Assembly: GCA_023382265.1 (NCBI GenBank)
Contig: JAMCPX010000031.1
Coordinates: 1 to 64,000 of the forward strand
Direction of reading: 5' to 3'
DNA length: 64,000 nucleotides
DNA from: Deltaproteobacteria bacterium
GTDB lineage: Bacteria > JAMCPX01
The position numbers and the translations under genes are program-made. The number at the start of each line of letters is the position of its first letter. Positions within the stretch are counted from its first letter, which is position 1. The notes below the pieces were generated by a model, which saw only the letters and a program-made list of their open reading frames with translations, had not been told where the DNA came from and made no database searches. This document shows positions 24,980 to 51,122 of the stretch, in pieces.

Positions 24980-26973
24980 TTATGTGGTTAAAGGGAATGC
25001 AGATGTGGTGGACGCAAATATCGTTTTTCAATTATCCGGGCGGCCCGCCGGGCCGCCCTTTGTTATAGTTATATGCGATATACTTGCAGGTAATGCAAGC
25101 CCTGCCCATGCAGTCCATGTTTTACCTGCGGTGTCTCTGCAATACAAGCCTTCTTCTAAGGATAAGAAAACCTATGCCTGTCAGAGGTATGAGCAGGAAC
25201 ATTATACCGGAACTGCCGCTTGTGCCCTGCGTACCAAGCCATGCACATCCGGAGCTTGACGATGACTTTGTCGCAAAGCTGAAGTCCAGCGTTGACGTAT
25301 TATCAGATGCATCCGTTGCCGTGATAATAACACTGTGCTTACCGGGACTCAGGAAACTGAGCAATATCTGTCTCGACGAGCCGAGGGACTTTGACGGAGA
25401 GCCGTCAAGGCTGTACGCAACCGCGATCTCGTCCGACGGCGTCTGATAATCAGAGACCTTGAGATCGAGTTCCACGTTCGTTCCCGTTGTTGCACCGTTC
25501 TGCATGTTTGTAACGGATATCGCGGGCGGCACAGTGTCTACCCTGAACGTGAGGCATGCCGGCGTAAGGTCCGAGAAATTACCCTTGTTCTTTGCCATGA
25601 CCTCAAACGTATGCACACCCTCTGTCAGAACAGGCAGGGTCGCCTCTGTCGACGTAGTAAACGGCGACCATAAGCCGTCATCAAGCCTGTACGTGTATTC
25701 AAGCTGTGCATTGTAATTCATAGGATCATAGCCCGCATAATTGATCACGGTATTGCTCGAGCTTATCCCAAGCATCTTTGATTGAATGCCGTTGACATTC
25801 AGCGTATTGAGGACAACAGGCCCTGAAGTCTGCTTGCCAATGTCCTGTCCATCAGGTACCAGTATATAAGCGTGCGGTGCACCGTTCTGCATCAATGCCT
25901 GGTACCTCGGCGCACCGAGTATGCCCTGCCAGTTCAACGGGCCGTACGCATAAGCGTATGCCGATAGAAAATCAGGTGTACCATCGGCATCGGCATCCAG
26001 TGCATTCGGATCAGGACCGATATAATAGAAACCCACGTTTATACCGAGCGCACCGAGATTGATCGGTGCCTGGATATAGCCGCCGAGCACGGTCGACAGA
26101 AGAACGGGTATGATCTGGGCAATGCCGTGTACCATATCCTGCGTTATGCCGGGGTATATGTTCGTTACCTGCGTAATCTTGGGAACAAGCAGGAAATTAA
26201 CCATTAATGCGCCGTACGTAGACGGAGGCAAGGGCGTGGGAACAAGGTAACTTATGTCCGCGCCTGCCTGCAGGTTCCAGTTTAACGTGAACATCCTTTG
26301 CTGGACACCACCTACCTGTGCATAGAAATCTATCTGATAGTTCGGCAGTGCCGCATAGATCATGCTCGTGGTAAGTGTACCGGACGTAAACGTCTCGGAC
26401 AGGTTGCGTCCAAGCTGTAAAGATGTCGGAGGCGGGTTGTTCGTCCCGCTCGACCTCGGGATCAAAGAGATCGAAACGTAGGAATTCGGATCAGCTATCT
26501 GTGCGATGGCAGGGGCAAACCTCGCAAACGCATTTATATTAAGATACGATGCGAGCGACGGGTATGTGTTTATGTTTATGTCAATACACGCAAGCCCGGA
26601 CAGATATATGTCGTAAAGCAGCTCATTAAGCACGTCCTGGGACATGCCTATGCCGAGATCATAAGGCTGTCCCGCGTATTGTATCGTATGGGTACTGCCT
26701 CCAAATAGGTATGTGCCGGACGGCACGGTTGTACTGTTGAATACGTTTGCCGCAACCTTTACGCCGGTTGTCGGCGGATTGGTCAGTAAAACGTTTGTCG
26801 GATTAAAGCTCGTCATGTCCACGCAGGATTTGTCACAGCTTGCACTGTTCGACGTATAGTACGGCGTATATATGGCAGGCAACAGGCCGAAATCGAGCGG
26901 GAATTTAACGCCGTAGCAATCCCCGTACAGTCCGCCGGCAGGATCGGGATAGGCGCCGAACAAATAGCAGTTC
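24980..26973. repeat. Near-identical 2-kb repeat, copy 1
   Basis: By eye this segment matches 28352-30345 at a constant offset of 3372 bp, with only two differences noticed (25006 T versus 28378 C; 26943 A versus 30315 G). It covers the 3' untranslated hairpin and the C-terminal 650 or so codons of the BPI-like gene. Identity stops abruptly at 26974, inside the coding region. Such sharp borders are typical of gene conversion or recent recombination. Confidence 0.9.
25038..25058. terminator. G+C-rich hairpin downstream of BPI-like gene B
   Basis: Perfect 9-bp stem (GGGCGGCCC / GGGCCGCCC) with a 3-nt loop, between the convergent peptidase gene and the 3' end of the BPI-like gene. On the plus strand TTTGTTATAG follows, a weak U-tract; on the minus strand there is none. 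It is probably a shared transcription-ending or mRNA-protecting hairpin. Confidence 0.45.
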
Positions 26974-28241
26974 TTTGAGAGATTAAGCGGCTCTCCGAGC
27001 TTTGCATTGATATCCATGGGTAAACCGAGTGTTTTATTCAGCATTACAGGAAGCTGGTTGTTTAACACGTTTTGTAACACAAGCATGACGACGAATTGAA
27101 GATAGTTTGATATTGTTCCATTAACATAACTATCAACAAGGCTGCATACGTTAATGCCGAAGATAGAACAGTTAAAGTTTAATGCCTGTAAATAAAACCC
27201 GGGCAGTAATACACTGGTTACATGCACGGAACCGGGCGGGAAGCTGAAGTATGTATCAGGCCCCCATGGACCGGTTGCCGATGTAAATGAGGGGGTTGCT
27301 GTTGCATTGATTATAATATTGCTTACAGCAGCATATATATCACCGGAAATAGGCCCAAGAAAAGGCAGATCAATACGATAGTTAATGTCTCCGATGTTTA
27401 CCGGCGCACCGGTAAGCAGGCTCCATGTGCTGTCCGGACAATTAGTGGGCCAGGGCTGGCTCGCCCATGAAGGGGTATTGCCGTTAAAAGACAGGTTAAT
27501 GCCTATATTCAAAGTTGCGGGCGTGCCGCCGGAGCATGAATTCGGACTCCACCCGAGTGTTACAGACGCCTGATCATAGTATATAAGAATTCCATCGCCG
27601 ACAGGCAGAGGACAGCTCGACGGTGCACAGTTATCCGTAAGCTGCATGCCGTAAGCAACATCTCCGCAGCATGATCCGCCCACAGTGCAGGGATTGAAAG
27701 GGGTATCGCCGCAGCCATTCGGCGTATAAGTGCCGCCTGAACATGTTCCGCAATATGCAATACAGCCGAAAGGACAACTCCAGCCCGTTTTTGCATAACA
27801 ATAGTCCCCTGCAAAGTTCATGCCGTTGAGCGAGCTGCTGATGTATTTTATCATGTACTCCGTCGTTAACAGGTTCGCAAGCTGTGTTTGCAATGCATTT
27901 ATAGCACCGGCCGTAAGTCTTACAACAAGACCGTCCGGTGCAACGCCGTAAGGGCTGAATTGATTGGGCAATCCCTGTATCGTAAAGTTCGGCGTATAGG
28001 ACGTGGTCGTGGCTGTCGTGCCGGAAAAGGCTTTTAAAGCAACTGCCCTGCCGTTTGCCATGCCCTCAGCGTACAATTCTTTTGGAGAGACATTTATAGT
28101 GGGCATCTGCTGCTGCAATTGCTGGATAGGCTGATCCTGATTTACATTGATATAGGTCTGTCCAAATCCTTTATAAGGATATATTAGCAGTACATATAAT
28201 AATATGCCCATGCTGAGCAATAATAATTTCTTGTGATTCAT
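25122..28241 (-). CDS. Giant secreted BPI/LBP-like (TULIP) lipid-binding protein B
   Basis: A 1039-aa exported protein. Signal peptide about residues 1-27 (ending GFGQ). A segment PDGLVVRLTAGAINALQTQL near 100 resembles the start of the BPI fold (GVVVRISQKGLDYASQQG, recalled from human BPI). A 12-cysteine insert follows (about 140-235). The second half shows LGIGMSQDVLNELLYDIYLS (about 530), FARFAPAIAQIADPNSYVSI (about 574) and LPNYQIDFYAQV (about 634), the order seen in the C-terminal BPI domain. A DADADGTPD calcium-type loop is near 750, two Ig-like domains span 800-990, and the tail has SSSSGC, a hydrophobic stretch and LRRR. The TULIP assignment is inference from local patterns. The C-terminal 650 residues are identical to the neighbour at 28494. 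It has its own promoter and a Shine-Dalgarno (AAAGGAG). Confidence 0.6.
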   Translation of the reverse strand: MNHKKLLLLSMGILLYVLLIYPYKGFGQTYINVNQDQPIQQLQQQMPTINVSPKELYAEGMANGRAVALKAFSGTTATTTSYTPNFTIQGLPNQFSPYGVAPDGLVVRLTAGAINALQTQLANLLTTEYMIKYISSSLNGMNFAGDYCYAKTGWSCPFGCIAYCGTCSGGTYTPNGCGDTPFNPCTVGGSCCGDVAYGMQLTDNCAPSSCPLPVGDGILIYYDQASVTLGWSPNSCSGGTPATLNIGINLSFNGNTPSWASQPWPTNCPDSTWSLLTGAPVNIGDINYRIDLPFLGPISGDIYAAVSNIIINATATPSFTSATGPWGPDTYFSFPPGSVHVTSVLLPGFYLQALNFNCSIFGINVCSLVDSYVNGTISNYLQFVVMLVLQNVLNNQLPVMLNKTLGLPMDINAKLGEPLNLSKNCYLFGAYPDPAGGLYGDCYGVKFPLDFGLLPAIYTPYYTSNSASCDKSCVDMTSFNPTNVLLTNPPTTGVKVAANVFNSTTVPSGTYLFGGSTHTIQYAGQPYDLGIGMSQDVLNELLYDIYLSGLACIDININTYPSLASYLNINAFARFAPAIAQIADPNSYVSISLIPRSSGTNNPPPTSLQLGRNLSETFTSGTLTTSMIYAALPNYQIDFYAQVGGVQQRMFTLNWNLQAGADISYLVPTPLPPSTYGALMVNFLLVPKITQVTNIYPGITQDMVHGIAQIIPVLLSTVLGGYIQAPINLGALGINVGFYYIGPDPNALDADADGTPDFLSAYAYAYGPLNWQGILGAPRYQALMQNGAPHAYILVPDGQDIGKQTSGPVVLNTLNVNGIQSKMLGISSSNTVINYAGYDPMNYNAQLEYTYRLDDGLWSPFTTSTEATLPVLTEGVHTFEVMAKNKGNFSDLTPACLTFRVDTVPPAISVTNMQNGATTGTNVELDLKVSDYQTPSDEIAVAYSLDGSPSKSLGSSRQILLSFLSPGKHSVIITATDASDNTSTLDFSFATKSSSSSGCAWLGTQGTSGSSGIMFLLIPLTGIGFLILRRRLVLQRHRR

Positions 28242-28351: not shown

Positions 28352-30345
28352 TTATGTGGTTAAAGGGAATGCAGATGCGGTGGACGCAAATATCGTTTTT
28401 CAATTATCCGGGCGGCCCGCCGGGCCGCCCTTTGTTATAGTTATATGCGATATACTTGCAGGTAATGCAAGCCCTGCCCATGCAGTCCATGTTTTACCTG
28501 CGGTGTCTCTGCAATACAAGCCTTCTTCTAAGGATAAGAAAACCTATGCCTGTCAGAGGTATGAGCAGGAACATTATACCGGAACTGCCGCTTGTGCCCT
28601 GCGTACCAAGCCATGCACATCCGGAGCTTGACGATGACTTTGTCGCAAAGCTGAAGTCCAGCGTTGACGTATTATCAGATGCATCCGTTGCCGTGATAAT
28701 AACACTGTGCTTACCGGGACTCAGGAAACTGAGCAATATCTGTCTCGACGAGCCGAGGGACTTTGACGGAGAGCCGTCAAGGCTGTACGCAACCGCGATC
28801 TCGTCCGACGGCGTCTGATAATCAGAGACCTTGAGATCGAGTTCCACGTTCGTTCCCGTTGTTGCACCGTTCTGCATGTTTGTAACGGATATCGCGGGCG
28901 GCACAGTGTCTACCCTGAACGTGAGGCATGCCGGCGTAAGGTCCGAGAAATTACCCTTGTTCTTTGCCATGACCTCAAACGTATGCACACCCTCTGTCAG
29001 AACAGGCAGGGTCGCCTCTGTCGACGTAGTAAACGGCGACCATAAGCCGTCATCAAGCCTGTACGTGTATTCAAGCTGTGCATTGTAATTCATAGGATCA
29101 TAGCCCGCATAATTGATCACGGTATTGCTCGAGCTTATCCCAAGCATCTTTGATTGAATGCCGTTGACATTCAGCGTATTGAGGACAACAGGCCCTGAAG
29201 TCTGCTTGCCAATGTCCTGTCCATCAGGTACCAGTATATAAGCGTGCGGTGCACCGTTCTGCATCAATGCCTGGTACCTCGGCGCACCGAGTATGCCCTG
29301 CCAGTTCAACGGGCCGTACGCATAAGCGTATGCCGATAGAAAATCAGGTGTACCATCGGCATCGGCATCCAGTGCATTCGGATCAGGACCGATATAATAG
29401 AAACCCACGTTTATACCGAGCGCACCGAGATTGATCGGTGCCTGGATATAGCCGCCGAGCACGGTCGACAGAAGAACGGGTATGATCTGGGCAATGCCGT
29501 GTACCATATCCTGCGTTATGCCGGGGTATATGTTCGTTACCTGCGTAATCTTGGGAACAAGCAGGAAATTAACCATTAATGCGCCGTACGTAGACGGAGG
29601 CAAGGGCGTGGGAACAAGGTAACTTATGTCCGCGCCTGCCTGCAGGTTCCAGTTTAACGTGAACATCCTTTGCTGGACACCACCTACCTGTGCATAGAAA
29701 TCTATCTGATAGTTCGGCAGTGCCGCATAGATCATGCTCGTGGTAAGTGTACCGGACGTAAACGTCTCGGACAGGTTGCGTCCAAGCTGTAAAGATGTCG
29801 GAGGCGGGTTGTTCGTCCCGCTCGACCTCGGGATCAAAGAGATCGAAACGTAGGAATTCGGATCAGCTATCTGTGCGATGGCAGGGGCAAACCTCGCAAA
29901 CGCATTTATATTAAGATACGATGCGAGCGACGGGTATGTGTTTATGTTTATGTCAATACACGCAAGCCCGGACAGATATATGTCGTAAAGCAGCTCATTA
30001 AGCACGTCCTGGGACATGCCTATGCCGAGATCATAAGGCTGTCCCGCGTATTGTATCGTATGGGTACTGCCTCCAAATAGGTATGTGCCGGACGGCACGG
30101 TTGTACTGTTGAATACGTTTGCCGCAACCTTTACGCCGGTTGTCGGCGGATTGGTCAGTAAAACGTTTGTCGGATTAAAGCTCGTCATGTCCACGCAGGA
30201 TTTGTCACAGCTTGCACTGTTCGACGTATAGTACGGCGTATATATGGCAGGCAACAGGCCGAAATCGAGCGGGAATTTAACGCCGTAGCAATCCCCGTAC
30301 AGTCCGCCGGCAGGGTCGGGATAGGCGCCGAACAAATAGCAGTTC
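28352..30345. repeat. Near-identical 2-kb repeat, copy 2
   Basis: Second copy of the segment at 24980-26973, in direct orientation. It starts in the untranslated region downstream of BPI-like gene C and ends inside that gene, where codons diverge from the first copy at 30346. Confidence 0.9.
28410..28430. terminator. G+C-rich hairpin downstream of BPI-like gene C
   Basis: Same 9-bp stem and 3-nt loop as at 25038, duplicated with the repeat. It separates gene C from the promoter of gene B. The U-tract is weak on both strands. Confidence 0.45.
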
Positions 30346-31622
30346 GTGGAGAGATTAAGCGGCTCTCCGAGCAATTTATTGATATCGAGTGGTAAGCCAA
30401 GCCCGCTGTTCAGCATTGTCGGGAGCTGGGTGTTTAACGCGTTTTGTATCGTGCTTTGAACAGTGCCCTGAAGGTATCCTGATACCAGCCCATTAATCCA
30501 TGTAGCAATCGACTGACATGGATTCCAGCCGAAGATGCTACAGCTCCAGTTTAATGCCTGTACATAGAACCCTGGCAAAGATACACTGTTTACATGTACG
30601 GAACCGGGCGGGAAGCTGAAGTATGTATCAGGACCCCATGCGGTGGTTGCCGATGTAAATGAGGGGGTTGCTGTCGCATTAATACTGATGTTATTTACTG
30701 CTGCGTACCCATTACCTGTCAGCGTTCCAACTATAGATATGTCGGCACGATAGTTGATATCACCGACATATAACGGCGCAGATCCCGGGCCAGAGCTCCA
30801 ATTGCTGTCAGGACAGTTATTGGGCCACCACTGGCTTGCCCATGAAGGGGTATTACCGTCGAAGTACAGTTGAATGCCTATGTTTAAGCTCGTAGGCACG
30901 CCGCCAGGACATGTGTTCGGGCTCCATGCAAGGGTTACATTTGCCTTATCATAGTACATCAAGATGCCATCACCCGCAGGCAGGGGACAGCCTGAAGGCT
31001 GACAATCATCCGTAAGCTGTACTCCATACTTGGCATCCGCACAGCATGAACCGCCGTAGCTGCAAGGAGAGAACGGGCCGTCGCCGCAGCCATTCGGCGT
31101 ATAAGTGCCGCCTGAGCATGAACCGCAGCTTCCAAGACAGCCAAAAGGACACGTCCAGTTTGCCGTTGCCCAGCAAAAATCGCCTGCAAAGTTCTCGCCA
31201 TTAAGTGAGGTGCCTATATATTTTATCATGTATTCCGATGTTAACAGGTTCGCAAGCTGTGTCTGCAATGCGTTTATAGCGCCGGATGTAAGCCTTAAAA
31301 CAACGCCGTCAGGCGCAACGCCGTAAGGGCTGAATTGATTGGGCAATCCCTGTATGGTAAGGTTCGGAGTAAATGCCGGGGTTGTGGCTGTTGTGCCGGA
31401 AAAAGCCTTTAAAGCTATTGCAGTGCCCTCTGTAAAGCCCTGCTCATACAATGCTTTTGGAGAGACGCCTGTAAGAGTGGGCATAGGCTGCTGTTCATAT
31501 TGCTGGATAGGCTGGTTTTGATTCCCATTAAAATAGGTCTGCCCAAATCCTTTATAAGGATGTATGAGTAATACGTATAAAAATATACTCAAGGTAACCA
31601 CTAACAATTTTTTGTTATCCAT
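28494..31622 (-). CDS. Giant secreted BPI/LBP-like (TULIP) lipid-binding protein C
   Basis: A 1042-aa paralogue of the protein at 25122, with signal peptide (MDNKKLLVVTLSIFLYVLLI, ending GFGQ), BPI-type start PDGVVLRLTSGAINALQTQL, a 12-cysteine insert at the same positions, the C-terminal BPI-like half, calcium-type loop, two Ig-like domains and a Cys/hydrophobic/Arg tail. From about residue 420 onward it is identical to protein B, while the N-terminal 400 residues differ at many positions. The pair therefore offers two different N-terminal modules on one constant C-terminal half. Promoter TTGACA-17-TATAAT and a Shine-Dalgarno (AAAGGAGGG) suggest strong expression. Same caveat: the TULIP fold is inferred, not demonstrated. 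Confidence 0.6.
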   Translation of the reverse strand: MDNKKLLVVTLSIFLYVLLIHPYKGFGQTYFNGNQNQPIQQYEQQPMPTLTGVSPKALYEQGFTEGTAIALKAFSGTTATTPAFTPNLTIQGLPNQFSPYGVAPDGVVLRLTSGAINALQTQLANLLTSEYMIKYIGTSLNGENFAGDFCWATANWTCPFGCLGSCGSCSGGTYTPNGCGDGPFSPCSYGGSCCADAKYGVQLTDDCQPSGCPLPAGDGILMYYDKANVTLAWSPNTCPGGVPTSLNIGIQLYFDGNTPSWASQWWPNNCPDSNWSSGPGSAPLYVGDINYRADISIVGTLTGNGYAAVNNISINATATPSFTSATTAWGPDTYFSFPPGSVHVNSVSLPGFYVQALNWSCSIFGWNPCQSIATWINGLVSGYLQGTVQSTIQNALNTQLPTMLNSGLGLPLDINKLLGEPLNLSTNCYLFGAYPDPAGGLYGDCYGVKFPLDFGLLPAIYTPYYTSNSASCDKSCVDMTSFNPTNVLLTNPPTTGVKVAANVFNSTTVPSGTYLFGGSTHTIQYAGQPYDLGIGMSQDVLNELLYDIYLSGLACIDININTYPSLASYLNINAFARFAPAIAQIADPNSYVSISLIPRSSGTNNPPPTSLQLGRNLSETFTSGTLTTSMIYAALPNYQIDFYAQVGGVQQRMFTLNWNLQAGADISYLVPTPLPPSTYGALMVNFLLVPKITQVTNIYPGITQDMVHGIAQIIPVLLSTVLGGYIQAPINLGALGINVGFYYIGPDPNALDADADGTPDFLSAYAYAYGPLNWQGILGAPRYQALMQNGAPHAYILVPDGQDIGKQTSGPVVLNTLNVNGIQSKMLGISSSNTVINYAGYDPMNYNAQLEYTYRLDDGLWSPFTTSTEATLPVLTEGVHTFEVMAKNKGNFSDLTPACLTFRVDTVPPAISVTNMQNGATTGTNVELDLKVSDYQTPSDEIAVAYSLDGSPSKSLGSSRQILLSFLSPGKHSVIITATDASDNTSTLDFSFATKSSSSSGCAWLGTQGTSGSSGIMFLLIPLTGIGFLILRRRLVLQRHRR

Positions 31623-44892: not shown

Positions 44893-45023
44893 TTCGGTAT
44901 AGAAAGTCATTTAAATCACATTGATTATATTCATGAGCAGGTTTTCGGTTCAAATAAGGGTAAATAATAGTAGGGCTTTTTTTAATAACTTTTCAATTTT
45001 AATCAACACCCAGAAATAAAATC

Positions 45024-45052
45024 TTGACAAAAATGTCAAAAATATATATTTC
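45024..45052 (+). promoter_or_regulatory. Operator-promoter 1 of the mannosidase island
   Basis: A 16-bp palindrome TTGACAAAAATGTCAA (45024-45039) whose left half is also the -35 box; a -10 box follows (TATATT or TATTTC, within 45045-45052). Downstream is a second inverted repeat, CTCTCTCAATAAGAG, whose right arm runs into a ribosome-binding site. The same palindrome and the same downstream layout recur on the minus strand at 49355. Occupation by a repressor would block the -35 box. Confidence 0.65.
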
Positions 45053-45071
45053 TCTCTCAATAAGAGGGGAT

Positions 45072-45146
45072 GTGATAACGCATTATGATGCAGTTATAAT
45101 AGGTTCTATGTTTGGTGGAGCTATACCTGCACTTTGTATTGTGTAG
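45072..45146 (+). pseudogene. Remnant of an FAD-dependent (GMC/cholesterol-oxidase-like) oxidoreductase
   Basis: Twenty-five codons from a GTG preceded by GAGGGG. The reading HYDAVIIGSMFGGAIPAL resembles the FAD-binding N-terminus of GMC or cholesterol-oxidase-like enzymes (usual GSGFGG, here GSMFGG) and then stops at TAG. The rest of the gene is missing. It lies between operator-promoter 1 and the mannosidase gene, as if the promoter had once served this gene. Apart from this and the operator, the 44893-45223 gap shows nothing. Confidence 0.4.
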
Positions 45147-45223
45147 GATGTAAAGCAAGGGAGATATATTTTTCAATTGGATAATTCATTTTTACAATCA
45201 AATAAATGTTTTCAGGGGGAATC

Positions 45224-47935
45224 ATGAAGTTAAAATCACTGTTGCTTATATTATTTGCCATTACTGGAAGTATTGCCTGTTCAAAAAATAGTAATAATCA
45301 GAGTAATATCCTAACTGCGAATAGCGAATCACAGATCAGGGACTTGCTTGGTGTACCTTTGAACGCAAAACAAGTAATGATAGTAAGCCAATCATCACAC
45401 TGGGATATAGACTGGCTTGAAACGTTCAATGGATATTATACAACATTTGTAGAACCAATAATTGAACAGGCATTAAACATGCTTGATAATAACAAGGGTT
45501 ATTATTATTCAATTTGCGAGATAGCATATCTAAAAAAGTTCTGGGATGAGCACCCTGAAGATCATGCAAAGATCATAAAATATCTTAAAGATGGGCAATT
45601 AAGAATCGTTGGCGGCGGTATGACAAGTCCTGATATAAACCTTCCAACAGGTGAGGCTTTAATGATGGATTGGTTTTATGGGAATCAATGGGTATACAAC
45701 ATTGCCGGAGTAAAACCTATTACAGCCTGGCAGCCTGATAGCTTTGGTCATGCACAGAGCCTGCCTGATATACTTGGTTCACTTGGTTATAAATATGTTG
45801 GGTTTTCAAGGGTACCCGGAGTTGAGTCCATGTCACAGTGGCTTGGATATGTTCCACCAGATCCAAATAGTTTTGCAGCAAAACTAATATCTAACGGCTC
45901 TTTAGATTTTGTCTGGAAAGGCATTGGCGGGGCAGAGGTGCTTGCACATTTTGTAATTGGCAGCTACGGGTTTGGAGATGCACTTTATGCTGCCACAGAT
46001 ACAACTTCAGTTGGTGTATTCAACAAATTTATAAGCATACTTAAACCTGTTTCACCAACAGGATACATGTTTGTTCCGGTTGGAGCTGATTTTATGCTGC
46101 CTGCTCCAAACTTACCTAAAATAATATCATACTGGGACGCGACCATGTATCAGTCAACAGGCGTATGGATAACCATGGCTACATTTGAAGATTATATGAA
46201 ACTTGTTTCCTTTCACGAAGCTCAATTACCTGTTTATTCTGTAGACCTTAATCCGTATTGGACAGGTTATTATGGCAGTAGGCCAGAGCTAAAAAAGCTT
46301 TCAAGGGAAACGACAAATACTCTATTAGCAGCACAACTATACTCTATTATAGCTGGTAATGCAGGTTACATTTATCCATCTGATAACTTAAACAATGTGT
46401 GGTCATTATTTGTATTATCAAATCATCATGACTGGGTTACAGGGACTGGTACAGATACGGTTTATTATAGTGAACAGCTTCCTGTGATGCAGGAGACATT
46501 AAACGAGGCAGATGCACTTGAGCAAACAATTACATCATACATTGCAAATCACATTAATACATCCTCTATTACAGCTACTGATATCTCTTTAATTATGTTT
46601 AATCCATCGGGTTTTATTAGATCAGATGTTGCTCAGGTATCTGTATCTTTTAATAATCCCGGGACTAAAAGTATCGGGATTGTTGGTCAGGATGGTAGCA
46701 CTGTTCCGTCCCAGATTATTACAGAAACCACATACAATGACGGGAGTATTGATAATGCAATAGTTATGTTATACGTTAATAACATTCCGTCACTTGGATA
46801 TGCGGTTTATTCTGTTATACCTAATGGCACCTCTTCTTCAACAGGTCCTACAATGACAACAGATGCACAAGGTGATGTTGTTCTTTCCAATCAATATGAA
46901 ACACTTGTGCTTGGTAAAAATGCAGGATATGCGATTACATCACTTGTTGATGATTCAAGTGATACGCAGATGATTTCAGGTCCATCAAATGATATTGAGT
47001 ATTATGAAGACACTGGAGATATGTGGTCAATTGGGTCTGAACCTGATGCTTGTGGCGTATTCGTACCCATATACTCACTATCACAAGCGGTATCAACTTA
47101 TACTGTATTAGGAATTGGGCCTGTTTACATAGAAATTCAGGTTCAGACAAATAGTCCATATGGCAATGTAATCCGCACCTACACGATGTATGCATCTTTA
47201 AAGAGAATTGATATGTCAACAACCTTATCCGCACCAACAGGAACAACAATTGCCGCGGTGTTCCGCACCACCATAAACAATGGCATAGATCGGATAGCCA
47301 TACCTTACGGTATTATTCAAAGGTCGTTTGAATCCATGTACACGCCTCAATTCTGGCCAGGGATAGAGTGGGTTGATCTGTTAAATCCTTCTACCAATGC
47401 GGGTATTGCTATGTTTGATATTGGCAATGAGATGTGGTCATTCGATAAAGCCGGCAACATTACAATGGTATTGGTAAGAAATCCTTCAGAAAATGGTAGT
47501 TGTTTCACAAAAGGCGCGTGTGGGACAGATAATGATACGCATACACTTGATTATGCTGTGTTATCACACGCATCAGGCAGCTTTGATGTCCGTGAAGGAT
47601 ATGCATTCAGTTCACCTTTAACAGCAATAGTAACATCAGTACATAACGGTAGTTTACCATTGTCTTATAGCCTTGCATCTTCAAATGATACGAATGCCTT
47701 GATTACAGCGGTTAAAGAATCAAAGAATGGAAATGGCATTATTCTTAGATTATTCAGACTTACCCCAGTTCCATCTCAGACATCAATTACTGTTACAGAC
47801 AGCAATATTAACACATCCGGTGCAACAATAGATGATAGCTTTGAAGACCCAATAGGAAAACCTGTTATAAATGGTTCTACAATAAGCCTTGATATAACAG
47901 GCACTATCTCTACCCTATTTTTACCCTTTGAATAA
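45224..47935 (+). CDS. GH38-like alpha-mannosidase lipoprotein
   Basis: An extracytoplasmic glycosidase of about 903 aa. The signal ends in GSIAC (lipobox); an upstream in-frame ATG at 45206 is less likely because AGGGGG precedes the ATG at 45224. The GH38 catalytic barrel begins with the zinc-binding SSHWDIDW (about residue 56-63) and contains AWQPDSFGHAQSLPDIL near 168-184, whose Asp corresponds to the nucleophile of GH38 retaining mannosidases (usual form DPFGHS). A further His pair, NHHDWVTGTGTD, fits the remaining zinc ligand region. The C-terminal 450 residues form the beta-sandwich domains usual for this family. Expected reaction: release of mannose from alpha-mannosides. The gene is visibly richer in A+T than the flanks. 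Confidence 0.82.
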   Translation: MKLKSLLLILFAITGSIACSKNSNNQSNILTANSESQIRDLLGVPLNAKQVMIVSQSSHWDIDWLETFNGYYTTFVEPIIEQALNMLDNNKGYYYSICEIAYLKKFWDEHPEDHAKIIKYLKDGQLRIVGGGMTSPDINLPTGEALMMDWFYGNQWVYNIAGVKPITAWQPDSFGHAQSLPDILGSLGYKYVGFSRVPGVESMSQWLGYVPPDPNSFAAKLISNGSLDFVWKGIGGAEVLAHFVIGSYGFGDALYAATDTTSVGVFNKFISILKPVSPTGYMFVPVGADFMLPAPNLPKIISYWDATMYQSTGVWITMATFEDYMKLVSFHEAQLPVYSVDLNPYWTGYYGSRPELKKLSRETTNTLLAAQLYSIIAGNAGYIYPSDNLNNVWSLFVLSNHHDWVTGTGTDTVYYSEQLPVMQETLNEADALEQTITSYIANHINTSSITATDISLIMFNPSGFIRSDVAQVSVSFNNPGTKSIGIVGQDGSTVPSQIITETTYNDGSIDNAIVMLYVNNIPSLGYAVYSVIPNGTSSSTGPTMTTDAQGDVVLSNQYETLVLGKNAGYAITSLVDDSSDTQMISGPSNDIEYYEDTGDMWSIGSEPDACGVFVPIYSLSQAVSTYTVLGIGPVYIEIQVQTNSPYGNVIRTYTMYASLKRIDMSTTLSAPTGTTIAAVFRTTINNGIDRIAIPYGIIQRSFESMYTPQFWPGIEWVDLLNPSTNAGIAMFDIGNEMWSFDKAGNITMVLVRNPSENGSCFTKGACGTDNDTHTLDYAVLSHASGSFDVREGYAFSSPLTAIVTSVHNGSLPLSYSLASSNDTNALITAVKESKNGNGIILRLFRLTPVPSQTSITVTDSNINTSGATIDDSFEDPIGKPVINGSTISLDITGTISTLFLPFE

Positions 47936-48014
47936 TGTCTTATATGATTTTCCCTAAGTTTCCCATTTTTGCAGCTTAAAATAAAAAGTATTGATTTAAC
48001 AACAAGTTACCTGT

Positions 48015-48040
48015 AAAAAAGTAGTGTGAAACCACACTAC
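48015..48040 (-). terminator. Intrinsic terminator of the GH99-like gene
   Basis: On the minus strand: an 8-bp stem (GTAGTGTG/CACACTAC) with a 4-nt loop, followed by six T. It lies 110 bp beyond the stop of the GH99-like gene, in the convergent gap 47936-48149, which holds nothing else. Confidence 0.85.
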
Positions 48041-48149
48041 GACTTATATCTCTCCTGGTTTATATTTCCAGATCTTCTTTACTCCAAATCCATAGGCCAA
48101 AACGGGGTTTTCTTTTAAACATATGGCCTCAGTGGCGACCCGTCTGAAT

Positions 48150-49205
48150 TTAATTAAACAATGTTTTAGTGAGATCTATGTATTGTTCCATGTATTGATA
48201 ACTGGGTTCTATCTCAGTACCTTCATGCCATTCATTAAAGGTTGTTATTAGAATCCAGTTAGGTGCTGGCGATGCTTTTAAAGCATCATTCACAAGCGCG
48301 GTATATAAGGCTCCATTGTTCCTGTCTACGACAGAAGTTATAGTTCTACCGATATTTGAATCATTATATCCAGGGATTACTGTAAGTGCAGACAGTAGCC
48401 CATCCTGTTTTGCAAGTTCTGTAAATCCTTTATATGCATTAGCCATATTGGCTCCAGACTGTATATCCAGGAGCGGATTGTATATATGAATACCCTGAAA
48501 GCCCATGTTTTTTAACTGCGGGACACTATAAGAAGTTAAAAAATAAGACATGGCATCACCAATAAAAATAACATCAGGGAATTTGTGAATTACAGAACTC
48601 CAGTTTATCACATCCGGCGTATTAGATGGACAGTTTCCTGTGCACCATAATGCAGGGAAAATCGCCCTGCCGTATACAAATATCACAGGCTTTCCATTAT
48701 ACTTCAGATAGTTTTTCATCCCAAAATAGTTTTCTTTTATATAAGTAATATCGCTGATTACATTACCTATATTTAGTCCCGGTACAATCTCATAATAAAT
48801 AGCTATCTTGGGCGGTGTATTAGTATCTTGAGCTACTTCAAATATCTTTTTTAGGGCATCATCCTCAAAACTGTTTATCCCCCACCATGAAACGATAAAA
48901 CCGTTTATCCCTGCGCGATTTGCAAGCTCAAACTGCCATTCTATTCTTAATTCATCTGTTGAGTCATACACATCGGGATATGGGTAATCCGTTGTGCCGA
49001 TATCTCTAAATCCAAGGGCATTAGTAATATCAGGATCATGCCCTGCCTCGTTCCAGTGTCTCCATTGCCCACTAAAGAAAGGGGTTCCATACCAAGGATA
49101 AAAGAAAGCTAAAACCTCTGGATGCTGCATTACTGGCACATTGCCGCTGCAGCCTTGATATACAAGTATCAGCAAAACTATCAACAGCCACGTCAACCTC
49201 TTCAT
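48150..49205 (-). CDS. GH99-like endo-alpha-mannosidase lipoprotein
   Basis: A 351-aa lipoprotein (lipobox VYQGC) with a GH99/GH71-type barrel. The N-terminal FFYPWYGTPFFSGQWRHW (about residue 34-51), then INGFIVSWWGINSFEDDAL, YNGKPVIFVYGR and the C-terminal TTFNEWHEGTEIEPSYQY (about 321-338) are the conserved positions of bacterial endo-alpha-mannosidase/mannanase relatives, with acidic catalytic residues in NEWHEGTEIEPS. It would cut inside alpha-mannan chains or glucosyl-mannose caps. Driven by operator-promoter 2; its ATG overlaps the end of a 40-codon lipoprotein-like ORF. Confidence 0.8.
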   Translation of the reverse strand: MKRLTWLLIVLLILVYQGCSGNVPVMQHPEVLAFFYPWYGTPFFSGQWRHWNEAGHDPDITNALGFRDIGTTDYPYPDVYDSTDELRIEWQFELANRAGINGFIVSWWGINSFEDDALKKIFEVAQDTNTPPKIAIYYEIVPGLNIGNVISDITYIKENYFGMKNYLKYNGKPVIFVYGRAIFPALWCTGNCPSNTPDVINWSSVIHKFPDVIFIGDAMSYFLTSYSVPQLKNMGFQGIHIYNPLLDIQSGANMANAYKGFTELAKQDGLLSALTVIPGYNDSNIGRTITSVVDRNNGALYTALVNDALKASPAPNWILITTFNEWHEGTEIEPSYQYMEQYIDLTKTLFN

Positions 49206-49324
49206 AAAAAGCCTTTTGGAAAGCTTATCGGTGCTGTTCCTTTACTACTATTTGAACATGATACTATGAAAATTTCAAAACATCCTACAACTAGAAAATT
49301 TATAATGGTTATATTTTTTCCCAT
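49202..49324 (-). CDS. Putative 40-aa small lipoprotein upstream of the GH99-like gene
   Basis: Starts ATG (49324) after AAGAGAAG, and encodes MGKNITIINFLVVGCFEIFI followed by VSCSNSSKGTAP, a lipoprotein-like signal with Cys 23, then stops overlapping the ATG of the GH99-like gene (TATGA). It could be a real mini-lipoprotein, a translational-coupling leader, or the leftover N-terminus of a lost gene. It occupies the same position relative to operator 2 as the FAD remnant does relative to operator 1. Confidence 0.35.
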   Translation of the reverse strand: MGKNITIINFLVVGCFEIFIVSCSNSSKGTAPISFPKGFL

Positions 49325-49341
49325 ATCTTCTCTTACTAAAA

Positions 49342-49370
49342 GAGATATCTTTTTTTGACATTTTTGTCAA
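49342..49370 (-). promoter_or_regulatory. Operator-promoter 2 of the mannosidase island
   Basis: Minus strand: the palindrome TTGACAAAAATGTCAA (49370-49355), identical to operator 1. Its first half is a -35 box, followed by a 17-bp spacer to TATCTC (49347-49342) and a second inverted repeat, CTCTTTTAGTAAGAG, whose right arm overlaps the Shine-Dalgarno. It sits between the divergent GH99-like and GxGYxYP genes and could control both. Confidence 0.65.
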
Positions 49371-49466
49371 GTATTTTATTCTCTGGAGTTTCCTGAGTTA
49401 TTTCAACAAAATAAAAATGACCTGCCTGTTTATAAAAACATCTTTTTGTGATATACTTTTCTCAAG

Positions 49467-51122
49467 ATGAGATGCCCTTATAAAATAATCTTTGTTTTAT
49501 TGGTATTACTCTCTTTCGTAAGATGTAGTAGAGAGCTTTCAAGTTTACCTGCCCTTAATAACATGAATACCCTTGATAAACTTTATATTGTGCGGCGACC
49601 TCCTATAGGTAATCTTTATGTAATTGATCTTACAGGCGAAACTTATGAAAATAAGGTGCTTGCAGCAAGCCTGCAGGGTATTGTAAATCGTAAATCAGCC
49701 AGGATATATCTTCTTGACGGCGATTCAAGTACCAATACAAGTATCAGACCATGGGAAGATACAACTGAACAAGCTTCAGAACTTTTCTGGCTTAATCTTT
49801 ATAAACAGCAGTATAATATAAAAGAGGTGTGGGAAGGCAATCTTGAGAATGCACTTTTAAAGTTTTCGGATGATATAAACGGCTATATACTTATTTCCAA
49901 TAATGAACCATGGACTATAAATGCAGGAACAACTATAGCAGGTATTACAGGCTCTCTTATAGCTTTTAGTGACCAACAGCCTCTTCTTGAGGCAGCAGGG
50001 ATTAAATTAAAAGAGTCGTTAATTGGTAAATGGACGGATTCATCCCAGTGTTATTTAGATTTAAGACAAAAATATTACCCGCAGATGGATAGCCCGGCTA
50101 TAGCAATCCTTGATCCAGAACAGTACCGTTTGCGCGATTTTTTGATACAGCAAGGTATTTTTACCATCTTTGGACGGCCCACAACCAATGACTGGCCTGC
50201 TGTAAAAGAGATCATACAGAGCCTTCCCCCTAATATACCTGTTTTTGGCTACCTTTCACTTACAGGTGAAGAGGAATTTGTAGCTATAACTACACTTTCA
50301 CAGGCGGGCAAATACCTTATACCAACGGATACCACACCAAATCTTTCTTTCCATGTAGCAGTCTTACCTTATTCATCTGAAACCAAAAAAACTCGCATTT
50401 ATCAAAATCATCTACTGTCAACGACAGTATGCAATCCCGGAGAGGTTAATGTAACTATTGCTATAAGTGATGGTGATAATTTAGCTATACCCTTACTTCG
50501 TTATCCGTGGTCTACTTACTGGAATTCTTCTCTTCGTGGACAGGTACCCATGGGATGGAGTATCTCTCCCGCACTGTACACGCTTGCACCTGCGGCAATG
50601 AACTATTATATAACCACGACTACCCCTCAGGATGAATTAATTGGTATGCTCGGGGCAGGGTATGCATTCCCATCCTTTTATCCCGACATTGATTTCTTTT
50701 TATCAAATAGTTTTCAGCTTATTTATACGCTCGGTTTCCCAACCTACTGGACGATTGATCCAATAGCATATTTTCAGGCCGCTCCACTGTGGGATGCTAT
50801 TTCAAGAAATACTGTAAATGGCTATCCTTCAGGTGTACTGGTCGGCTATGGCGGGGCAGCAAATTATTTTCTTACACAAAAAGGTATGCCTGTTCTTATG
50901 GCAGGGAACAGCTATGCTGATACCCCACAGACTATTGCCCAGCATATAACTGATATTATAAATGAGCCTGCCTCACAAAGGCCCCTTATAACCTTTCTCT
51001 TTGCATCAGTCTGGTCTAACTCGTATGAGGGATTAGCTCAAACACTTGAGCCATTTCAGTCCCAGGGGGTTCATTTTTTGCTTCCTTCTGAAGCTTTAAA
51101 ATGTATTTCACAGAAATATTAA
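49467..51122 (+). CDS. GxGYxYP-family lipoprotein (putative glycan-active)
   Basis: A 551-aa lipoprotein (lipobox SFVRC). The N-terminal domain begins GNLYVIDLTGETYENKVLAA, then SLQGIVNRKSARIYLLDG. The C-terminal domain has the family name motif as GAGYAFPSFYPD (about residue 396-407), preceded by NVTIAISDGDNLAIPL. Pfam GxGYxYP proteins occur in polysaccharide-utilisation loci and are regarded as putative glycoside hydrolases, without proven activity. The ATG lacks a Shine-Dalgarno; a TATACT box lies 9 nt upstream. Divergent from the GH99-like gene and sharing its operator. Confidence 0.78.
   Translation: MRCPYKIIFVLLVLLSFVRCSRELSSLPALNNMNTLDKLYIVRRPPIGNLYVIDLTGETYENKVLAASLQGIVNRKSARIYLLDGDSSTNTSIRPWEDTTEQASELFWLNLYKQQYNIKEVWEGNLENALLKFSDDINGYILISNNEPWTINAGTTIAGITGSLIAFSDQQPLLEAAGIKLKESLIGKWTDSSQCYLDLRQKYYPQMDSPAIAILDPEQYRLRDFLIQQGIFTIFGRPTTNDWPAVKEIIQSLPPNIPVFGYLSLTGEEEFVAITTLSQAGKYLIPTDTTPNLSFHVAVLPYSSETKKTRIYQNHLLSTTVCNPGEVNVTIAISDGDNLAIPLLRYPWSTYWNSSLRGQVPMGWSISPALYTLAPAAMNYYITTTTPQDELIGMLGAGYAFPSFYPDIDFFLSNSFQLIYTLGFPTYWTIDPIAYFQAAPLWDAISRNTVNGYPSGVLVGYGGAANYFLTQKGMPVLMAGNSYADTPQTIAQHITDIINEPASQRPLITFLFASVWSNSYEGLAQTLEPFQSQGVHFLLPSEALKCISQKY

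Follow-up and report, generated by a model that had tools for sequence, protein, structure and literature searches.

A palindromic candidate operator of a FadR-like TetR regulator precedes fatty-acid genes and, behind truncated gene starts, two mannosidase-type genes

Regulons of fatty-acid genes under TetR-family proteins are already well known. In the Bacillus FadR (YsiA) regulon a TetR repressor acts through a palindromic operator that precedes acyl-CoA genes, and this operator is reportedly of the TGAATGA type and not TTGAC-N6-GTCAA. Stearoyl-CoA is a ligand of the B. subtilis protein (PDB 3whc). Thermus thermophilus has a FadR that is a TetR-family repressor of fatty-acid genes, with the short pseudo-palindrome TTRNACYNRGTNYAA (PMC5597230). 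PsrA and FadP are TetR-family regulators that control fatty-acid degradation in Proteobacteria, and the PsrA regulon has undergone lineage-specific expansion into other pathways, such as TCA-cycle genes in Shewanellaceae (PMC5343134). The TetR-family FadR of Sulfolobus acidocaldarius has a 16-bp dyad-symmetric motif, a site at its own gene and release by acyl-CoA (PMC6449355). The regulon that we describe here has its own motif, TTGACAWWWWTGTCAA, and its unusual part is two mannosidase-type genes that appear to have been recruited behind truncated gene starts. In the literature that we searched we found no precedent for mannosidases under fatty-acid TetR control.

Both mannosidase-type genes lie in a window of 64,000 nucleotides, by which we mean the whole stretch of DNA that was analysed. 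The source genome (G000) is a draft of 2.63 Mb in 73 contigs and is 96% complete. A preliminary description of the window had reported the 16-mer TTGACAAAAATGTCAA at 45024-45039 on the plus strand and at 49355-49370 on the minus strand, and exact copies are present at both places. It had noticed no other copy, and indeed the window has none; the next matches in it have three mismatches, which is at chance level. A matrix trained on the sites of this genome outside the window, which are fatty-acid sites, was applied to the window and gave both copies the joint top score of 21.2 bits; the next-best position scored 14.0, and 50 simulated windows reached 17.0 at most.

The similarity that had been described downstream of the palindrome is real, but it covers more sequence than had been described. 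A block of 65 bp is common to 45010-45074 (plus) and 49322-49386 (minus), with 82% identity (E 1.1e-9) in a whole-genome search that turned up nothing comparable at a third place. Outside the palindrome, the likeness of the flanks exceeds that of dinucleotide shuffles (the downstream value was reached by 8/2000 and the upstream value by 16/2000). The second inverted repeat, CTCTCTCAATAAGAG at 45052-45066 (plus) and CTCTTTTAGTAAGAG at 49330-49344 (minus), overlaps a Shine-Dalgarno both times, as had been noted, and at both places this Shine-Dalgarno belongs to a short reading frame that is a gene relic. When folded as RNA, the repeats give -6.0 and -3.8 kcal/mol, respectively, with z about -1.5, which is unremarkable. 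We considered an RNA hairpin switch at the Shine-Dalgarno and rejected it, as the hairpins exist, yet their z-scores are weak. Each operator copy contains a TTGACA hexamer, in keeping with the earlier view of the palindrome as a repressor site that holds the -35 box, and its behavior is like that of a repressor operator. The -10 boxes at both sites are weak, with 3/6 matches at a spacing of 17 bp.

Sites across the genome were found by pattern search. There are exactly five copies of TTGACN6GTCAA in the 2.63 Mb, against two of the reversed control. The core is pure A/T in every one of them, with about 0.17 such copies expected by composition, and each time genes begin a short way downstream: in the window these are GH38 and GH99, on contig C1 an acyl-CoA ligase, on C30 a divergent ligase/acyl-CoA dehydrogenase pair, and on C32 a TetR gene with two acyl-CoA dehydrogenases behind it. 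The relaxed pattern TTGAYW6RTCAA has 11 sites in this genome (one for the reversed control) and 67 in the nine family genomes counted (six for the reversed control); the relatives compared are family members, none from the same genus. All nine sites of this genome outside the window precede fatty-acid/CoA genes or operons, and the six further relaxed sites head a 3-beta-HSD-type SDR, an HMG-CoA-synthase-like gene, a thiolase, a ChsH2-like gene with thiolases, an acyl-CoA dehydrogenase and a folK-GMC operon. Many orthologous promoters in the relatives keep the site, so that the operator stands in a conserved position before beta-oxidation and acyl-CoA genes, as in a fatty-acid regulon. Further genes behind it there are those for MaoC, SCP2, CoaE/CoA-transferase and 2-hydroxyacyl-CoA dehydratase, and five relatives have the identical window 16-mer before acyl-CoA or SCP2 genes. 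Gene context was read for part of the 67 sites, and the gene calls at L207, L217, L218 and L220 in the relatives are ambiguous. At many sites the TTGACA half is usable as a -35 box, and a -10 box resembling TATAAA or TAATAT follows after 16-18 bp. At others, 12-20 bp separate the operator from the start codon, so it must act within the promoter or the early transcript.

This distribution does not agree with the earlier reading that the palindrome marks a mannoglycan-degradation island. The same operator heads genes for acyl-CoA ligase, acyl-CoA dehydrogenase, thiolase, a hydroxysteroid-type SDR and TetR, and the genome scan with the operator pattern, akin to the check that had been proposed, lists fatty-acid/CoA promoters beside the two window sites. 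The island itself consists of three glycosidase-type genes (GH38, GH99 and GxGYxYP) among ordinary genes. We rejected a mannoglycan-specific operator on the strength of the genome- and family-wide searches, in which the operator precedes acyl-CoA genes. Nor does the locus look like a dedicated one for mannoglycan utilisation, with the operator also in front of acyl-CoA genes and, as the preliminary description had said, no regulator gene adjacent in the window. GH38 and GH99 are the only sugar targets of the operator found in this analysis.

As a separate observation, folK with an operator-like site heads an operon on contig C64 (G000:C64:1524-4041) that also holds a 142-aa protein with no Pfam match and a GMC oxidoreductase. 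Folate synthesis is oddly paired there with a fatty-acid operator.

The regulator had been placed elsewhere in the genome, with LacI, GntR or MarR proteins as the guess. It is likely encoded elsewhere, on contig C32, and the candidate is instead a FadR-like TetR protein. Its gene (25690-26319) is followed by two acyl-CoA dehydrogenase genes. Orthologues are present in all nine genomes, and 9/9 have the site TTGAC..(A/G)TCAA upstream, at 21-23 bp from the start codon in the seven relatives where the start was read and at 46 bp in this genome. The self-site is a nearly invariant block in an upstream region that has otherwise diverged, and the DNA-recognition segment SYGLVYHYFKNKED is invariant among the seven aligned full-length proteins. 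This genome has several TetR paralogues; among the other TetR groups that we fetched, none had a consistent self-site. From the conserved self-site we infer that C32 TetR is the regulator.

The C32 TetR protein has a TetR_N domain (E 1.5e-13), and its best NCBIfam model is FadR (E 3e-22), although it reaches 79 bits against a cut-off of 200 for the Bacillus FadR equivalog NF053878. Its best PDB profile matches are Bacillus FadR (5gp9, 5gpa, 1vi0, 3whb). The predicted fold (mean pLDDT 83) is also closest to Bacillus FadR: FadR chains from B. subtilis and B. halodurans rank near the top, with a TM normalised by target of about 0.76-0.87. The candidate is therefore a TetR-family protein resembling FadR, as is expected of a fatty-acid regulon. 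Judged by sequence and model, it is FadR-like and not a strict Bacillus FadR, because its best matches by profile and fold are to FadR, yet the equivalog score is below the cut-off.

Of the described systems, Bacillus FadR is thus the closest in both sequence and fold, and it shares a palindromic operator before acyl-CoA genes. It differs in that C32 TetR has about 22-25% identity to it in structural alignments, and in that two mannosidase-type genes are targets here. Thermus FadR has a 15-bp site with another core and half-site spacing, and the protein is a more distant match (rank 30). PsrA and FadP form separate regulator groups, with a weak match of C32 TetR to PsrA, and are likened here by regulators and not by motifs. 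The S. acidocaldarius FadR is archaeal and a more distant match (6el2), and its likeness rests on motif layout and not on motif sequence.

Behind operator 1, a putative GH38 alpha-mannosidase lipoprotein of 909 aa is encoded at 45206-47935 (plus). It has PF01074 (E 2.8e-37, 129 bits) and PF09261 (59 bits), with the C-terminal domain just under its cut-off, and the nearest PDB entry is Golgi alpha-mannosidase II. Between the operator and this gene lies the relic of a GMC oxidoreductase gene start at 45072-45146 (plus; GTG, 24 codons, TAG). It keeps the first ~23 codons, up to a premature stop, with 78% identity over 23 residues to intact kin in the same genome (C22:5719, E 2.9e-7). After the relic comes a 60-bp spacer, and GH38 has its own Shine-Dalgarno. 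A possible further GMC fragment at 45146-45181, resembling residues 199-210, was suggestive in translation (E 0.001), and we dropped it because the match at the DNA level was not significant. That the operator is perfect while the relic next to it has decayed hints at continued use of the site.

There is a second GH38 copy in this genome (G000:C18:39444-42161), 79% identical to the one in the window, which follows a ketopantoate-reductase-like gene and has no operator. In four relatives (G002:C24, G003:C8, G007:C350 and G008:C34; L060-L063), GH38 comes after a stand-alone response-regulator receiver gene, with the gene ends adjacent or overlapping. This setting is conserved, and it differs from that in the window. 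In G002 and G004 there is a relaxed site at 1.3-1.5 kb from GH38; we assigned it to an SCP2-like gene in divergent position and set it aside.

The minus-strand operator leads to a putative GH99 endo-alpha-mannosidase-type lipoprotein of 351 aa at 48150-49205 (minus; PF16317 E 2.4e-31, 109.6 bits against a cut-off of 33; nearest PDB entry 4acy, an endo-alpha-mannosidase). Here the relic, at 49202-49324 (minus), comprises the initial 40 codons of a gene for a GH1 lipoprotein, with 67% identity to a GH1 protein of a relative (G005:C24, E 5.5e-12) that is intact there (Pfam GH1 E 2.2e-52). The DNA alignment to G005 runs from part of the 5'UTR to TTTTTATG and breaks where the GH99 start codon begins. 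Because the stop of the relic overlaps the GH99 start (ATGA), GH99 is probably translationally coupled to it. A GH38 origin of the GH99 leader was not supported, and conserved attenuator peptides were rejected for both leader reading frames, as these correspond to GMC and GH1 gene starts. Divergent from GH99 is a putative glycoside hydrolase lipoprotein of the GxGYxYP type at 49467-51122 (plus; PF14323 E 3.2e-29); its start is 96 bp from operator 2, and it may be a third target. The similarities of GH38 and GH99 fit mannoside degradation.

Elsewhere in the window, two adjacent minus-strand reading frames of ~1040 aa (25122-28241 and 28494-31622) have the look of a tandem duplication, and the 16-mer TTTATGTTTATGTCAA occurs at 26569 and 29941.

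The operator was absent at all of the GH38, GH99, GH1 and intact GMC genes that we examined in relatives. We looked for conservation of the operator at the relatives' GH38 and GH99 genes and did not find it, and we did not find the two genes together in any relative. Since orthologues in the relatives lack the site, the entry of GH38 and GH99 into the regulon appears to be specific to this lineage, as far as it has been sampled.

We think it probable that the palindrome is the operator of the FadR-like TetR repressor encoded on C32, with GH38 and GH99 as lineage-specific members behind truncated gene starts. By analogy with FadR, a TetR dimer would bind the 16-bp motif over or beside the promoter and block RNA polymerase, which is how the regulon would be repressed and controlled in vivo. 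Long-chain acyl-CoA would presumably be the effector that releases the repressor, as in FadR (PDB 3whc) and the archaeal case (PMC6449355). Gene loss or rearrangement would have left GH38 and GH99 reading from the operator-bearing promoters of the GMC and GH1 relics. Against this explanation stand the poor -10 boxes, the FadR equivalog score below cut-off, and the absence of the site at the relatives' genes and at the C18 copy of GH38. To our knowledge, moreover, no physiological connection of mannosidases with fatty acids has been established, which counts against it as well.

The truncated gene starts after both operators could also mean that the operators are leftovers of the GMC and GH1 genes, that GH38 and GH99 are expressed from other promoters or at background, and that the sites no longer matter. 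The weak -10 boxes fit this, and GH38, with its own Shine-Dalgarno, has a spacer that could hold another promoter. We still find it unlikely, because both operators fit the regulon consensus at every conserved base despite the decay of the GMC relic, and because GH99 begins exactly at the stop of its relic (ATGA) and so stays on one transcript with it. It is rather improbable that the fatty-acid regulon is real and its regulator a different TetR or a protein of another family. The number of TetR paralogues would allow it, and binding by C32 TetR is a prediction, but only the C32 orthologue group has the consistent self-site, and the gene is FadR-like and sits beside acyl-CoA dehydrogenases.

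Two further explanations take the window locus as special. Both sites head mannosidase-type genes, and the 65-bp block was not seen elsewhere, as would fit a dedicated regulator of mannoglycan use whose palindrome resembles the fatty-acid sites by accident. However, relatives have the identical 16-mer in front of acyl-CoA and SCP2 genes, and in this genome the remaining three strict sites all lie at acyl-CoA promoters, so we regard this as very improbable. We give even less credence to the two copies being terminal inverted repeats of a mobile or invertible segment of 4.3 kb. Their inverted orientation around GH38-GH99 and the 65-bp similarity suit such a segment, but the similarity stops near the relic start codons, no transposase or invertase reading frame lies between the copies, and the core of the 16-mer is common to unrelated acyl-CoA promoters.

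If the FadR-like operator does control GH38 and GH99, a possible reading, which we offer tentatively, is that surface-anchored alpha-mannosidases were recruited into the regulon by promoter capture, with two unrelated upstream genes truncated, so that mannoside trimming would come on when acyl-CoA rises. Feeding on mannosylated lipids or on dead cells is an equally tentative example of when this would happen. The family with this regulon is known here from draft genomes alone, and a conserved fatty-acid regulon could be defined in it from sequence, with an operator, a candidate regulator and up to ~10 promoters per genome. This corrects the plausible inference from a shared palindrome to a sugar regulator specific to one pathway. 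If the glycosidase promoters work as we propose, they would clearly illustrate how a regulon expands, with the truncated gene starts still showing the origin of the promoters.
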